DNA from: Halomonas getboli
Lineage (GTDB): Bacteria > Pseudomonadota > Gammaproteobacteria > Pseudomonadales > Halomonadaceae
NCBI RefSeq assembly: GCF_023094245.1
Contig: NZ_JALMEW010000011.1
Span: 1-64,000 of the forward strand
Direction of reading: 5' to 3'
Length of the DNA stretch: 64,000 bases
The notes under the pieces: generated by a model
Told to the model about the DNA's origin: nothing
Database searches by the model: none
The model's input: only the letters and a program-made list of their open reading frames with translations
In this document: positions 32,318-56,241 of the stretch, piece after piece
How the letters are laid out: every line of letters begins with the position of its first letter
How positions within the stretch are numbered: the first letter of the stretch is position 1
Made by a program: the position numbers and the translations under genes

Positions 32318-32395
32318 ATGCCGGCCTTTTCCGTATCCTCGATTGTCTTCCGCCTTCCCCGTGCCACCGGCATGCTCGGCGGCTGGCGATGGTGA
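32318..32395 (+). CDS. candidate trpE leader peptide, 25 residues ending GGWRW
   Basis: An ATG frame of 25 codons ends in GGC GGC TGG CGA TGG TGA, that is two Trp codons as residues 23 and 25 right before the stop. A weak GGA lies about ten bases upstream. It is 81 bases ahead of trpE, after a plausible promoter. The spacer has possible stems (for example GGCG-ATGGTGA-CGCC over the Trp codons, and an imperfect stem around ACGGCGCCCTTCGGG) but no T-run, so a transcription terminator is not evident. A shorter start at 32372 is possible. Confidence 0.45.
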   Translation: MPAFSVSSIVFRLPRATGMLGGWRW

Positions 32396-32476: not shown

Positions 32477-33967
32477 ATGATGACCCCCGAACGCTTCCAG
32501 TCCCTGGCCGAGTCCGGCTACAACCGCATCCCGGTCACCCGCGAGGTGCTGGCCGATCTCGACACGCCGCTGTCCACCTACCTCAAGCTCGCCGACGCGC
32601 CCTGGACCTTCCTGCTGGAATCCGTGCAGGGCGGCGAGAAGTGGGGCCGCTACTCGATCATCGGCCTGCCGTGCCAGGAGCGCATCGAGGTGCGTGGCTT
32701 CCAGGTCACGCACGTCATCGACGGCGAGGCCCAGGGCGTGACCGAGGTCGAGGACCCGCTGGCCTGGATCGAGGCCTTCCAGGCGCGCTTCAAGGTGCCG
32801 CGCCTGGACGATCAACCGCGCTTCGACGGCGGCCTGGTGGGCTACTTCGGCTACGACACCATCCGCTATATCGAACCGCGCCTGAGCGGAGTGGAAAAGC
32901 CCGATCCCATCGGCGTGCCCGATATCCTGCTGATGGTCTGCAACGACCTGGTGGTGTTCGATAATCTCTCCGGGCGGCTGACGCTGTGGACCCACGCCGA
33001 TCCGGCCGAGCCCGAGGCCTACGAGCGCGCCGTGGCGCGCCTCGACGCCCTCGAGGAGCAGCTGCGCGGGGCGGTGCTCGACGCCCGCAGCCCCGGCACC
33101 GGCGGCCGGGCGGTGGAGGAGGGGCACTTCACCTCCGGTTTCACCGAGGCCGGCTTCAAGTCGGCGGTGGAGACGATCAAGGAATACGTGCTGGCCGGCG
33201 ACATCATGCAGTGCGTGCCCTCCCAGCGCATGTCGATTCCCTATCAGGCGCCGCCGCTGGATCTGTACCGCGCGCTGCGCAGTCTCAACCCCTCGCCCTA
33301 CATGTTCTACTTCGACCTGGGCGATCATCAGGTGGTGGGCTCCTCGCCGGAGATTCTGACCCGCCTCGAGGAGGGCGAGGTCACCGTGCGCCCGATCGCC
33401 GGCACTCGGGTGCGCGGACGCACCGAGGCCGAGGATCAGGCGCTCGAGGCCGACCTGCTGAACGACCCCAAGGAGTGCGCCGAGCACCTGATGCTGATCG
33501 ACCTGGGGCGCAACGACGTGGGCCGCATCTGCGAGACCGGCTCGGTGACCGTCACCGACAACATGGCCGTCGAGCGCTACTCCCACGTCATGCACATCGT
33601 GTCCCAGGTCACCGGAAGGCTGCGGCCCGGGCTGACCGCCATGGACGCGCTGCGCGCCACCTTCCCGGCGGGCACGCTGTCCGGGGCGCCGAAGATCCGT
33701 GCCATGGAGATCATCGACGAGCTGGAGCCGGTCAAGCGTGGCGTCTACTCCGGCGCCGTGGGTTACCTGTCCTGGCACGGCAACATGGACACCGCCATCG
33801 CCATTCGCACCGCGGTGATCAAGGACGGCGAGCTGCACGTCCAGGCCGGCGCCGGCGTGGTGGCCGATTCCGTGCCCGAGATGGAATGGCAGGAGACCCT
33901 CAACAAGGGGCGGGCGCTGTTCCGCGCCGTGGCCATGGCCGAGCGTGGCCTGGACAATCTCGAGTGA
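32477..33967 (+). CDS. trpE: anthranilate synthase component I
   Basis: A 496-residue chorismate-binding enzyme making anthranilate with glutamine-derived ammonia from TrpG. The N-terminal domain contains the feedback site region [18 protein letters not shown] (the LLES motif binds tryptophan). The catalytic domain has [45 protein letters not shown] and [18 protein letters not shown]. It is separated from trpG by a 340-base leader region rather than being fused or overlapping. Confidence 0.97.
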
Positions 33968-34018
33968 GGTCGGCTCGAGCCAGCGCCTCTCGAACAGACG
34001 CCTCTCGAACGCGCGCGA

Positions 34019-34038
34019 GGCCCCGTCACTCCGGGGCC
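34019..34038 (+). terminator. hairpin after trpE
   Basis: A 7-bp stem GGCCCCG / CGGGGCC with a 6-base loop lies 51 bases downstream of trpE. No T-run follows. Upstream of it, the 12-mer CGCCTCTCGAAC occurs twice (33984-33995 and 33999-34010). Confidence 0.4.
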
Positions 34039-34046
34039 CGGGCATC

Positions 34047-34052
34047 TTGACA
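34047..34052 (+). promoter_or_regulatory. -35-like box of the trpGDC leader
   Basis: A consensus TTGACA lies 32 bases before the leader peptide ATG. A well-spaced -10 is not obvious; TATGAC at 34074 is 21 bases away, longer than usual. A promoter here is likely because the attenuator follows. Confidence 0.35.
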
Positions 34053-34083
34053 GGGTCGGCCGGCGGCGAGCACTATGACGAGC

Positions 34084-34134
34084 ATGAACATATCCGATCA
34101 GACATTCGGCCCGATGGCGTGGTGGCGCTCCTGA
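34084..34134 (+). CDS. trpL: trp leader peptide (MNISDQTFGPMAWWRS)
   Basis: A 16-codon frame contains tandem Trp codons (residues 13-14) close to its stop, the hallmark of a trp attenuator. An in-frame ATG three codons upstream (34075) is an alternative start. It is followed by the attenuator hairpins and then trpG. When charged tRNA-Trp is short, ribosomes should stall at the WW codons (34120-34125) and favour read-through. Confidence 0.82.
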   Translation: MNISDQTFGPMAWWRS

Positions 34135-34141
34135 GCGAAGG

Positions 34142-34191
34142 GGCGGCACGCTTGCGACCGAAGAAAATGCCGCCGCCAGGGCGGCATTTTT
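34142..34191 (+). terminator. trpGDC attenuator (antiterminator and terminator)
   Basis: Segment 2, GGCGGCA at 34142-34148, and segment 4, the same GGCGGCA at 34180-34186, compete for segment 3, TGCCGCC at 34168-34174. The 3:4 pairing extends to an 11-bp stem (AAAATGCCGCC / GGCGGCATTTT, loop GCCAG) ending in a T-run, a classical terminator. Segment 2 also overlaps CACGC (34147-34151), which can pair with GCGTG at 34117-34121 over the first Trp codon, giving the 1:2 structure. Confidence 0.85.
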
Positions 34192-34307
34192 GTGTCTATT
34201 GATCCCTGTACGGCTGGCGCAGGTACCGCGAACGATCTGGATAAGATCCTGGGTAACGAATAGAACCCGAAAATAGAAACCACTGTAAAATCAAGGACTC
34301 TATCGCC

Positions 34308-34892
34308 ATGTCCGTGCTGATGATCGACAATTACGACAGCTTCACCTTCAACGTCGTGCAGTACCTGGGGGAGCTCGGCGCCGAGGTGGTGACCCATCGC
34401 AACGATGCCATCACCCTGGAGCAGATCGAGGCGCTGGCGCCCAGCCATCTGGTGGTCTCGCCGGGCCCCTGCACGCCCAACGAGGCAGGCATCTCCATGG
34501 AGGCGATCCGCCATTTCGCCGGCCGCCTGCCGATCCTCGGCATCTGCCTGGGTCACCAGGCCATCGGGCAGGTGTTCGGCGGCCGGGTGGGCCGCGCACC
34601 GCAGGTGATGCACGGCAAGACCTCGCGCATTCGCCACACCGGCCTCGGCGTGTTTGAGGGCCTCGAGGACCCGCTGGAGGTGACCCGCTACCATTCGCTG
34701 GTGGTGGATCGCGACAGCCTGCCGGACTGCCTGGAGATCACCTCCTGGACCGACGAGGACGATGTGACCCCGGGGCTGATCATGGGCATGCGCCATCGCG
34801 AGCTCGACATCGAAGGCGTCCAGTTCCACCCGGAATCGATCCTGACCCGCCAGGGCCACGAGCTTCTGGCCAACTTTCTCAAGCGTCGCTGA
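34308..34892 (+). CDS. trpG: anthranilate synthase component II (glutamine amidotransferase)
   Basis: A 194-residue class I glutamine amidotransferase. It starts [27 protein letters not shown]; the nucleophile Cys is in [15 protein letters not shown] and the His-Glu pair in VQFHPESIL. It probably serves both TrpE and the PabB encoded at 54883, as no separate pabA is seen, which is inference. It heads trpGDC behind an attenuator. Confidence 0.95.
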
Positions 34893-34924: not shown

Positions 34925-35944
34925 ATGCAGATGCGGGAAGCCCTTGGTGCCCTGATGCGCCACGAGAACCTGAGCTTCGACCAGACCCATGCGCTGATGA
35001 CCGCCATCATGACCGGGGAGGCCAGCGACGCCCAGATCGCCGCCTTCCTGATGGGCATGGCGATGAAGGGCGAGACCCCCGAGGAGATCAGCGCCGCCGC
35101 CCAGGTGATGCGCGAGCTGATGTCGCCGGTCACGCTGCACGCCGAGAACGTCGTCGACATCGTCGGCACCGGCGGTGACGGCGCCAACCTGTTCAACGTG
35201 TCCACCGCCTCGAGCTTCGTCGCCGCCGCCGCCGGCGCCCACGTGGCCAAGCACGGCAACCGCGGGGTGTCGTCGTCTTCGGGCAGCGCCGACCTGTTCG
35301 CCGTGGCCGGCATCGGCCTCGACCTGAACGCCGACCAGGTGGCGCGCTGCATCGAGGACGTGGGCGTCGGCTTCATGTTCGCCCCCAACCACCATCCCGC
35401 CATGCGCCATGCGATCACCGCGCGGCGCGAGATGGGCGTGCGCACCCTGTTCAACATCCTCGGCCCGTTGACCAACCCGGCCGGTGCCCGCCGCCAGCTG
35501 CTCGGCGTCTATTCCGCCGAGCTGGTGCCGCTGATGGCCGAGGTGCTCAGGCGCCTGGGCAGCGAGCACGTGCTGGTGGTGTGCGCCGAGGACGGCCTCG
35601 ACGAGATCTCGCTGGCCGCACCGACCCGGGTCGCCGAACTCAAGGACGGCGAGATCCACGAGTACACCATCGCCCCCGAGGACTTCGGCATCGCCCGCCA
35701 CGACCTCGACGCCCTCAAGGTCAAGACCGCCGAGGACAGCCTGCGGCTGGTGGAGCAGGCGCTGATCGGCGAGGGCCCGGCGGCCGACATCGTGGCGCTC
35801 AACGCCGGCGCGGCACTGTATGCCGCCGACGTCGCCGATACCCTCAAGGAAGGCGTGGCCCTGGCGCAGGACGCCCAGGACTGCAAGCTGGCCCGCGAGA
35901 AGCTCAGGGAGCTGGCCAACTTCACTCGCGTCTTCGCTCAGTAG
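34925..35944 (+). CDS. trpD: anthranilate phosphoribosyltransferase
   Basis: A 339-residue transferase joining anthranilate and PRPP. The PRPP-binding loop is DIVGTGGDGANLFNVSTASSFVAAAAGAHVAKHGNRGVSSSSGSADL, and HPAMRHA with RTLFNILGPLTNPA follow. It lies 32 bases after trpG and 21 bases before trpC, so the three form one operon. Confidence 0.96.
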   Translation: MQMREALGALMRHENLSFDQTHALMTAIMTGEASDAQIAAFLMGMAMKGETPEEISAAAQVMRELMSPVTLHAENVVDIVGTGGDGANLFNVSTASSFVAAAAGAHVAKHGNRGVSSSSGSADLFAVAGIGLDLNADQVARCIEDVGVGFMFAPNHHPAMRHAITARREMGVRTLFNILGPLTNPAGARRQLLGVYSAELVPLMAEVLRRLGSEHVLVVCAEDGLDEISLAAPTRVAELKDGEIHEYTIAPEDFGIARHDLDALKVKTAEDSLRLVEQALIGEGPAADIVALNAGAALYAADVADTLKEGVALAQDAQDCKLAREKLRELANFTRVFAQ

Positions 35945-35965: not shown

Positions 35966-36772
35966 ATGACCGCATCCAACGCTACTCCGACCATCCTGAC
36001 CCGCATCCTGGCGCACAAGGACGCCGAGGTCGCCGAGCGCCGCCAGGCCGTGTCCGAGGACGAGCTGCTGCGCCTGGCCGGCCTTCAGTCCGCGCCGCGC
36101 GGCTTCGTGGCCGCCCTGGACGCGCGCATGCGTGACGGCGACCCGGCGGTGATCGCCGAGGTCAAGAAGGCCTCGCCCTCCAAGGGCGTGATTCGCGAGG
36201 ATTTCCGTCCGGCCGAGATCGCCGCCAGCTATGCCGCCGGCGGGGCCGCCTGCCTGTCGGTGCTCACCGATGTCGACTTTTTCCAGGGTCACGAGGACTT
36301 CCTGGTCGAGGCCCGGGAGGCCTGCTCGCTGCCGGTGATCCGCAAGGACTTCATCACCCATGGCTACCAGGTCAGCGAGGCGCGGGCCATCGGCGCCGAC
36401 TGCATCCTGCTGATCGTCGCCGCCCTGGACGACGCCCAACTGGCCGACCTGCATCGCCAGGCCACCGAGCTCGGCATGGACGTGCTGGTCGAGGTCCACG
36501 ATGCCGCCGAGCTGGAGCGCGCTCTGGCGCTGGACCTCTCGCTGGTCGGCATCAACAACCGCGACCTGCATACCTTCGCGACCCGCCTCGAGACCACCCT
36601 GGACCTGCTGCCGCGCATTCCCGCCGGCGTCACCGTGGTCACCGAGTCCGGCATCCACAGCCGCGACGACGTGCTGCGCATGCGCGAGCACGACGTCCAC
36701 GGCTTCCTGGTGGGCGAGGCCTTCATGCGCGAGGACGACCCCGGCGAGGCGCTGCGTCGGCTGTTCTACTAG
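35966..36772 (+). CDS. trpC: indole-3-glycerol phosphate synthase
   Basis: A 268-residue TIM-barrel enzyme, not fused to TrpF. The catalytic Lys and Glu are in [13 protein letters not shown] and VLVEVHD, with [23 protein letters not shown] and VTESGI the other landmarks. It is the last gene of trpGDC and is followed by a hairpin. Confidence 0.96.
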
Positions 36773-54882: not shown

Positions 54883-56241
54883 TCAGTCGGGATCGCTCAG
54901 CGCCGCCATCAGATGGCGGATCTTGTCCAGGGTCTCGGTGTATTCCGCCTCGCCCTCGGAGTCCGCCACCAGGCCGCCGCCGCCCCACAGGTGCAGCCGG
55001 CCGCGGTCGGCCACGGCGGTGCGGATGGCGATGGAGGTGTCCATGTGGCCGCGCACGTCGACGTAGCCGAGGCTGCCGCAGTAGGCGCTGCGCGCCGAGG
55101 GCTCCAGCTCGTCGATGATCTGCATGGCGCGCACCTTGGGGGCGCCGGTGATCGAGCCGCCGGGGAAGGCCGCGGCCAGCAGCGCCAGGGGCGATTGCTG
55201 CTCGGCCAGCTCGCCGGTCACCACGCTGACCAGGTGATGGACGTTGGCGTAGCTCTCGAGCCCGCACAGCTGCGGCACTTGCACCGTGCCGGGTCGGCAT
55301 ACCCTACCCAGATCGTTGCGCAGCAGGTCGACGATCATCACGTTCTCGGCGCGATCCTTGACGCTCGTCGTCAGTTCCTCCGCCAGGCGGCGGTCCTCTT
55401 CCGGCGTGGCGCCCCGCGGCCGGGTGCCCTTGATCGGGCGGGTTTCCACCCGGCCCTCGGCGCAGTGCAGGAAGCGCTCCGGCGACAGCGACAGGATCGC
55501 CTGCTCGCCCCATTCGAGGAAGCCGGAGAAGGGCGTGGGCGTGGCCCGGCGCAGGCGGCGATAGGCCGTCCACAGATCGCCCTCGAAGGGGGCGCTGAAG
55601 CGCTGGGCGAGGTTGATCTGGTAGCAGTCGCCGGCGCGGATGTAGCGCTGCACGGCGTCGAAGCGCGTGAGGTATTCCTCACGGCTGAGCTCGGCCCCGA
55701 ACTCGCCGGTCAGCTGGAACGTTGCATCGCTCGTCTCGCGCTCGTCGATGTTGCTCAGCCATCCCAGCACCTCGGCGCGGCGTTCCGGCGTGGCGATCAG
55801 CCAGGCCTCCCGGCGCTCGTGGTCCTGGATCAGCGCCCAGTCATAGAGGCCGACCCGGGCCGCCGGCAGCCCGGCCGCGGGCCGCGCGCTGCCGGGCACC
55901 GGCTCCAGGCAGCGGCCCAGGTCGTAGCTCCAGTAGCCGATCAGCCCGCCGAGGAAGGGCAGCTCGCTGTCGGGCACGTCGCGCGGCAGCCGCTCGAGCA
56001 GTGCCCGCTGGGCGTCGAAGGGCGCGAGGTCCGTGGGCACGTCATCGCCGTGGCAGCGGCCCTCGGCGTCGACCTCCAGCACGCTCAGCGGGTCGCAGGA
56101 GAGGATGTCGTAGCGGCCGCCCGGGGCGTCCGGGCGGCCGCTGTCGAGCAGCACGGCGCCCGGGCGCTGGCGCAGGGCGGCGAAGGTGGCCAGGGGCGAG
56201 TCCCGATAGGGCAGGGGGGTGATCTCGAGTGGTGATGTCAT
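54883..56241 (-). CDS. pabB: aminodeoxychorismate synthase component I
   Basis: A 452-residue chorismate-using enzyme of folate synthesis, adding ammonia to give 4-amino-4-deoxychorismate. The diagnostic PIKGTRPR motif (Lys nucleophile, versus PIAGTR in TrpE) is present, as are the N-terminal FLGGLIGYWSYDLGR and the end GGGGLVADSEGEAEYTETLDKI. The start at 56241 (MTSPLEITPL) is favoured over 56271, which would add ten residues. No pabA is adjacent, so TrpG probably supplies glutamine amidotransfer. Confidence 0.94.
   Translation of the reverse strand: MTSPLEITPLPYRDSPLATFAALRQRPGAVLLDSGRPDAPGGRYDILSCDPLSVLEVDAEGRCHGDDVPTDLAPFDAQRALLERLPRDVPDSELPFLGGLIGYWSYDLGRCLEPVPGSARPAAGLPAARVGLYDWALIQDHERREAWLIATPERRAEVLGWLSNIDERETSDATFQLTGEFGAELSREEYLTRFDAVQRYIRAGDCYQINLAQRFSAPFEGDLWTAYRRLRRATPTPFSGFLEWGEQAILSLSPERFLHCAEGRVETRPIKGTRPRGATPEEDRRLAEELTTSVKDRAENVMIVDLLRNDLGRVCRPGTVQVPQLCGLESYANVHHLVSVVTGELAEQQSPLALLAAAFPGGSITGAPKVRAMQIIDELEPSARSAYCGSLGYVDVRGHMDTSIAIRTAVADRGRLHLWGGGGLVADSEGEAEYTETLDKIRHLMAALSDPD

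Follow-up and report, generated by a model that had tools for sequence, protein, structure and literature searches.

The trp genes of this Halomonas strain lie in the order gph, trpE, 340 bases, trpG, trpD and trpC. In the window (the whole 64,000-nucleotide stretch of DNA analysed), a sequence-only reading had proposed a complete ribosome-stalling attenuator in front of trpG. Reading the sequence directly, we found the coordinates given there for the 16-residue Trp leader, segments 2, 3 and 4, the terminator and the 340-base gap all to be correct, and the attenuator before trpGDC is real (Table 1). Its -35 box lies about 80 bases downstream of the end of trpE. A terminator scan of 33900–34400 returned three sites, against 0.3 ± 0.6 in shuffled sequence; all three are overlapping versions of one and the same hairpin, and one lies on the minus strand. 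The window thus holds the short Trp-codon-rich ORF and the intrinsic terminator before biosynthetic genes by which attenuators are recognized, as well as the mutually exclusive 1:2, 2:3 and 3:4 pairings of amino-acid attenuators. At gathering cut-offs, Rfam gives no match in the window; the best sub-threshold match is RF00513 (Trp_leader), which is covered over its full model length with 19.4 bits (cut-off 41, E 0.93). A Pfam and NCBIfam search of five leader peptides found no leader family.

Table 1. Parts of the attenuator and associated genes in the window
Feature	Position	Strand	Basis or remark
-35 box TTGACA	34047..34052	+	sequence
-10 box CACTAT, spacer 18	34071..34076	+	sequence; NANNNT box in relatives
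Leader peptide ORF MNISDQTFGPMAWWRS*, predicted leaderless	34084..34134	+	ATG 34084, 16 codons, TGA 34132-34134
Tandem Trp codons TGG TGG	34120..34125	+	sequence
Segment 1 (protector arm)	34122..34132	+	fold; covariation with segment 2
Segment 2, including GGCGGCA 34142-34148	34139..34149	+	fold, alignment
Segment 3 TGCCGCC	34168..34174	+	sequence, alignment
Segment 4 GGCGGCA	34180..34186	+	sequence, alignment
Intrinsic terminator, hairpin and T5	34163..34191	+	consensus scan, terminator rule
Degenerate arm-type repeat TGGATAAGATCCTGGGTA	34238..34255	+	85 nt upstream of trpG core; one substitution; probable arm site
trpG	34308..34892	+	TIGR00566 above cut-off
trpG codons VLMIDN, the prophage crossover stretch in relatives	34314..34331	+	prophage junctions
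trpD	34925..35944	+	profile match
trpC	35966..36772	+	profile match
trpE leader ORF ending GGWRW* (alternative start 32303)	32318..32395	+	sequence, family comparison
trpE	32477..33967	+	profile match
pabB, probable TrpG partner	54895..56220	-	TIGR00553, 385.7 bits (cut-off 328.4)

We propose that trpGDC is regulated apart from trpE, by a Trp-responsive transcription attenuator that works through ribosome stalling; judging from sequence, we put the probability of this reading at roughly 0.83. The classical trp logic suggested earlier is favoured because anatomy, conservation and covariation all support it. RNA polymerase would start at the leader ATG or within a base or two of it, and a ribosome would have to load on the leaderless 5′ AUG. 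When charged tRNA-Trp is plentiful, this ribosome would reach the stop codon and mask segment 2, whereupon the 3:4 terminator would form and transcription would stop near 34191. When it is scarce, the ribosome would stall at the tandem TGG codons in segment 1, 2:3 would pair before segment 4 is made and polymerase would continue into trpGDC. An untranslated leader would form 1:2 together with 3:4, and transcription would end.

The sequence-only reading had looked to relatives for the leader and for the segment complementarity, and both are conserved. Of the 121 family genomes sampled, 119 gave a trpG match, and we compared the upstream DNA of all 119; a Trp-codon leader precedes trpG in 67 of them, and the complementarity is kept. 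A promoter-first search recovers the unit TTGAC[A/G]-17/18-NANNNT-6/7-ATG in 65 of the 119 genomes, with a -10 box that is mostly CA[CGAT]TAT, a distance from -10 box to leader ATG of 6 nt (29 genomes) or 7 nt (36 genomes) and a leader of 15–18 codons (16 codons in 43 of the 65). Eight of these 65 leaders have a single W codon instead of WW, which weakens strict tandem-Trp sensing in those genomes. The promoter-first ranking broke ties towards a 6.5-nt gap, a bias from which a promoter-agnostic search is free: here, an exact TTGACA stands 35–37 nt upstream of an in-frame ATG in 54 of 59 WW leaders (a set that excludes the false WW ORF of L197). The five leaders lacking an exact TTGACA at that spacing are those of L121, L145, L171, L172 and L175, the last three of which have TTGACG.

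A Shine-Dalgarno core precedes the leader ATG in none of the 65 genomes and precedes trpG itself in 44. Across the 3.66-Mb genome of the window, TTGACA-17/18-CANTAT-6/7-ATG occurs only once, at the trpG leader. A generic promoter scan of 33900–34400 found no promoter; it missed CACTAT because only three of the six positions match TATAAT. From the conserved promoter spacing and the missing Shine-Dalgarno core, we predict that the trpG leader mRNA is leaderless, with a transcript that probably starts at the leader ATG.

Folding of 34075–34200 yields z = -2.3, with 3 of 200 shuffles equally good. The helix energies are -19.5 (1:2), -16.1 (2:3) and -18.9 kcal/mol (3:4). If segment 1 is masked before segment 4 has been transcribed, the predicted pairing is 2:3, at -17.6 kcal/mol; with segment 4 present, 3:4 is preferred in every fold, and the full leader gives 3:4. 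The two pairing states expected from the sequence-only reading are therefore both predicted. Because 3:4 always prevails as soon as segment 4 exists, the switch has to act co-transcriptionally, as in classical attenuation.

In 29 of 62 modules, segments 2 and 3 share a perfect complement of 7 nt or more, compared with 259 of 12,400 shuffled regions. A terminator is found by rule in 62 of the 65 promoter-leader modules; L162, L171 and L172 fail the rule despite a visible hairpin, and the rule-found terminator of L169 looks wrong. Alignment A1 holds 43 rows (42 distinct) of the 62 terminator-bearing modules, 19 near-copies or modules with longer spacers having been left out. In this alignment, both sides have changed in five of the ten pairs of helix 1:2 (91.8% of cells paired) and in one of the nine pairs of helix 3:4. 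Taken jointly, the two helices contain 18 double-changed cells versus 5.9 in shuffles, a value reached by none of 500; the count of further pair types (20 versus 17.7, with 35 of 500 shuffles as high) is weakly raised and unconvincing. Helix 2:3 has 95.6% of cells paired and shows no covariation in A1, which is uninformative because the helix is nearly invariant. Unguided, RNAalifold returns 1:2 in a partly shifted form, plus 3:4.

The presence of the attenuator tracks operon structure. None of the 27 genomes in which no more than 200 nt separate trpE and trpG has it, all 19 with a gap of 201–700 nt do, and so do 48 of the 73 in which trpE lies farther away or outside the fetched DNA; no leader was found in the remaining 25 of these 73. 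Covariance model R1, built for the module, scores 51 bits or more at 106 places, which lie in 103 of 275 family genomes, and 85 of 244 genomes of the order (family included) have a match at E ≤ 0.01. The best match outside the family in these 244 genomes scores 39.2 bits, which we took as background; nothing exceeds it there, and we therefore read the attenuator as restricted to the family at this sensitivity. On a TrpG tree of 30 of the 119 sequences, parsimony requires six attenuator changes, at least two of which are forced by well-supported branches: the attenuator has been gained or lost several times. The six best matches of all to the window module come from another genus (g2) and are 88–89% identical, and the best match of its TrpG lies in its own genus (91%; g2 81–84%, other congeners down to 81%). 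In six loci (L227–L231 and L237), varied gene blocks of 10–21 kb, some of whose proteins resemble type VI secretion components, lie between trpE and the attenuator, which stays beside trpG.

Intrinsic terminators commonly stand between operons, and the site might be nothing more than a constitutive terminator after trpE with a short ORF that arose by chance. However, the Trp codons, the leader length and the promoter spacing are conserved, the 1:2 hairpin covaries and the attenuator is missing where trpE and trpG are contiguous. We consider a chance ORF beside an ordinary terminator highly improbable and rejected it on the grounds of conservation, covariation and operon-linked presence. A different objection concerns the start of the transcript, which could lie upstream of the leader ATG, through read-through from trpE or another promoter, giving a longer 5′ UTR and making the TTGACA box mere decoration; the poor -10 match, the empty generic scan and the short distance between trpE and the -35 box all speak for it. 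Yet the box is held at its spacing in 54 of 59 leaders, the Shine-Dalgarno core is absent from 65 of 65, and the promoter-leader unit is kept where trpE is far off or outside the fetched upstream DNA, so that an upstream start seems unlikely to us. We thus retain the stalling attenuator with a predicted leaderless start.

Where such a module might have come from is suggested by prophages in relatives of the window genome. Five genomes (G003, G014, G015, G082 and G058) carry a prophage of 36–52 kb with an integrase beside a truncated 5′ end of trpG, an arrangement not seen in the window. In G003 and G014, a match to R1 is followed by the opening codons of trpG (MSVLMIDN), by foreign sequence and by a tyrosine integrase (PF13356, PF22022, PF00589), and trpG proper lies about 45 kb (G003) and 52 kb (G014) further along. 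G015 and G082 have the same layout over 36–38 kb, and G058 has it over about 52 kb with the fragment VLMLDH, found with a looser core motif. All five contain PHROGs genes: tail and endolysin (G003); integrase, exonuclease and SSB (G014); terminase, portal and endolysin (G015); terminase and portal (G082); tail and repressor (G058). The five best integrase matches in the 121 genomes are exactly those of these five genomes. We found no trpG core beside the integrases of G055, G070 and G049, and the window genome yielded no integrase match at E ≤ 1e-75. One further case, G102 (L332), was left uncounted: trpG is not matched in this genome at E ≤ 1e-60, and an integrase resembling those of the trpG prophages sits at the end of a contig whose terminal letters, ATGCTGGATAAT, are similar to the trpG core.

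The prophage of G003 is flanked by two different modules. At the integrase side lies the native module (WWW), whose identity to the modules of congeners reaches 93%. On the trpG side is a different module, TTGACA-17-CACTAT-6-ATG, with the leader MTTAPIASIKSWRLH, a terminator, an arm repeat and a new trpG start, MRQSVLMIDN; it directly follows an ORF, which is presumably AlpA-like, and a recombination-associated exonuclease gene (phrog_724, presumably RdgC). A second phage-borne attenuator, with the leader MTSISMTIAKQWRLVI and a phage anti-repressor nearby, is present in IMG/VR contig 2788500074_000003, of which the trpG side alone is seen; it scores 71.9 bits with model R1, which was not trained on it. 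In this assembly, the trpG beside this second attenuator (L329/L339) is interrupted by an in-frame stop close to codon 17. Altogether, two of nine trpG-side junctions carry an attenuator (G003 and contig 2788500074_000003), and none was found at the other seven; the nine are those of the five prophages and of IMG/VR loci L337, L338, L339 and L340, with L337, L338 and L340 counted as viral from the IMG/VR listing. Single-W leaders beside trpG in G074, G084, G115 and G025 (L088, L087, L127 and L146) are 69–74% identical to the second phage module, and in G074, R1 also matches less strongly (40.9 bits) about 1.6 kb upstream, immediately after trpE. Among phage isolates, the phage-borne module is matched by five records, in each case over 11% of its length, and none of the 222 integrase matches reaches 60% identity. 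L327 and L330, two of four contigs from a DNA-pattern search, were discarded as unrelated chance matches.

All five prophages have, at both ends, direct repeats with the pattern TG[GA]GTA-N6-TG[GA]GTA. With at most one substitution, the repeat is found 82–85 nt before the trpG core (94–96 nt in three cases) in 26 of the 119 family genomes, 14 of them exact and with the window (offset -85, one substitution) and the five prophage genomes included; it is found in none of 118 control stretches and in 22 of 5950 shuffles. After removal of the prophage genomes, the offset peak is still at -84, with 13 of 87 genomes at up to two mismatches and a mean over offsets of 0.15. In the band from -98 to -80, 24 of 92 non-contiguous operons have the repeat versus none of 27 contiguous ones (Fisher P 0.0018). 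At up to two mismatches, it is present in only 22 of 67 attenuator-bearing genomes and in 45 of 80 IMG/VR trpG loci, all 45 at -83 to -85 and many of them near-copies. Other families have it in 4 of 69 trpG loci, all at -84, and in none of 35 contiguous operons, with a slightly looser pattern. The repeat is probably an integrase arm site, and the region in the window a probable fossil attachment site. A large group of very similar IMG/VR contigs (L389 and L391–L416), with TrpG 59% identical to that of the window, shares TGAGTA[CT]CAAATTGAGTA at -83 before the core and is perhaps another lineage of trpG-targeting elements.

These observations add a possible origin to the attenuation model: the attenuator region may be an old phage attachment site, to which temperate phages with an integrase acting at the VLMIDN codons of trpG brought a substitute promoter, Trp leader and terminator, so that trpGDC would remain regulated once it had been split from trpE, and where prophage decay left the module beside trpG. 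In favour are the five prophages, each with phage genes and an integrase beside a truncated trpG; the native module at one end of the G003 prophage and the different, phage-end attenuator at the other; the second such attenuator with its neighbouring anti-repressor; the nearly fixed offset of the repeat in family genomes, its restriction to non-contiguous operons and its frequency in IMG/VR loci; and the closeness of the window module to that of another genus even though TrpG is closest to its own. Against it stand the low share of junctions with an attenuator, the window genome, which has neither a close integrase match nor a second trpG fragment between trpE and trpG, the substitution in the window repeat and the many attenuator-bearing genomes without the repeat; moreover, the phages may have taken the module from their hosts instead. 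On balance, we give a phage origin slightly less than even odds. The repeat near -84 could alternatively be a site for a host regulator of trpGDC, as it is present in genomes in which no prophage was found at trpG. But a repeat of the same type stands beside the integrase at the other end of the five prophages, with identical letters in G014 and G015, and contiguous trpEGDC operons lack it both in the family and in other families, so that we regard a host regulator site as rather improbable, a little more so than an upstream transcript start.

Taking the phage reading further, we tentatively suggest, with somewhat less confidence than the phage origin itself, that temperate phages integrating in the first codons of trpG carry a complete substitute Trp attenuator (leaderless promoter, Trp leader peptide, terminator, ribosome site and new trpG start) that would keep the split trpGDC under Trp control. 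Domesticated copies, including that of the window, would then be the normal trpGDC attenuators of Halomonadaceae, which would explain the separate trpE and trpGDC operons.

The sequence-only reading had set the attenuator before trpG rather than trpE. It does precede trpG; the statement is incomplete, as trpE has a Trp leader ORF of its own (Table 1). We rejected the possibility that trpE is unregulated. Of the family loci, 38 include the trpE start together with 150 nt or more of upstream DNA; an ORF ending WxW* is found in 31 of these, and the tail LMRx[VI]KxWRW* is common to 19 of the 38. A T5 run follows the trpE leader ORF in only 8 of the 31, from which we infer that trpE is probably controlled in another way; this suggests a different mechanism, perhaps Rho-linked or dependent on the nascent peptide. 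The further proposal that TrpG is shared with PabB gains indirect support from pabB, which lies in the window about 20 kb from trpG and on the opposite strand, and from the lack of a second TrpG-like protein above 28% identity in the genome, which contains two weak matches of 28% and 26%. The trpG attenuator therefore probably also affects folate supply. Ten genomes of genus g2 do have a second TrpG-like protein, which is 53–56% identical.

The leaderless geometry, the dependence on operon contiguity, the phage link and the separate trpE leader go beyond the sequence-only reading. If the model is correct, Gammaproteobacteria possess a conserved leaderless attenuator in which ribosomes must load at a bare 5′ AUG, a step on which the timing of stalling depends. 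Should the phage reading hold as well, lysogeny splits a host operon and compensates by importing a working amino-acid-sensing regulatory RNA, which would provide a concrete route for splitting and re-regulation of a trp operon. Of all these features, the phage connection will probably surprise specialists most. Among the listed titles and abstract openings of the open literature, which leaves most subscription journals uncovered, we found no report of a phage-borne amino-acid attenuator, of trpG-targeting integrases or of trp attenuation in Halomonas.

The trp attenuator of E. coli has a tandem-Trp leader, segments 1–4 and an intrinsic terminator, all of which it and RF00513 share with the window. 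The window differs in that its attenuator stands before trpG, has no Shine-Dalgarno core and scores below the RF00513 cut-off. In P. putida, both trpE and trpGDC are reportedly attenuated, going by the title of a report (Olekhnovich and Gussin 2001), and a separate attenuated trpGDC operon beside an attenuated trpE would resemble the window. Attenuation of trpGDC is thus already known; what is new here is the predicted leaderless, trpG-specific form tied to split operons. In the Pseudomonas loci that we compared, the leader is longer, mostly starts with GTG and ends ARWRWRA; the window leader is not of that type. No TGCCGCC-type terminator was seen behind the trpG leader in these loci, and model R1 has no match in three of them (L026, L040 and L047). 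The Pseudomonas leader also shows a match to Gph: in trpG loci such as L021, its tail, ...KAHARWRWRA, aligns with the last 23 residues of model NF009698 at an E-value of 5e-5. In genomes where gph lies upstream of trpE, the C-terminal part of Gph may serve as the trpE leader as well.

In azithromycin-treated biofilms of P. aeruginosa, premature 3′ ends are predicted before trpGDC, by a potential GTG uORF, in the part of PMC8297930 available to us. A parallel to the predicted leaderless start is trpL of S. meliloti, whose transcript begins at the ATG of a 14-codon Trp leader; it belongs to an alphaproteobacterium and stands before trpE(G), and the available text describes no phage link (PMC7298713). 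As with the trpG prophages, phage-related DNA occupies the trpE–trpG interval in P. aeruginosa, where the R2 pyocin cluster lies between the two genes; the accessible part of that source describes neither an integrase in trpG nor replacement of an attenuator (PMC7344871). A Halomonas prophage in dusA has been described in a paper whose main text has no word starting with trp (PMC11131426, seen in part). Elements with dusA-associated integrases insert in the 5′ end of the gene and replace it, the new 5′ sequence and a putative promoter coming from the element, according to the available part of PMC4482086. Compared with the dusA elements as described there, the elements studied here target trpG, and two of them supply a complete amino-acid attenuator.
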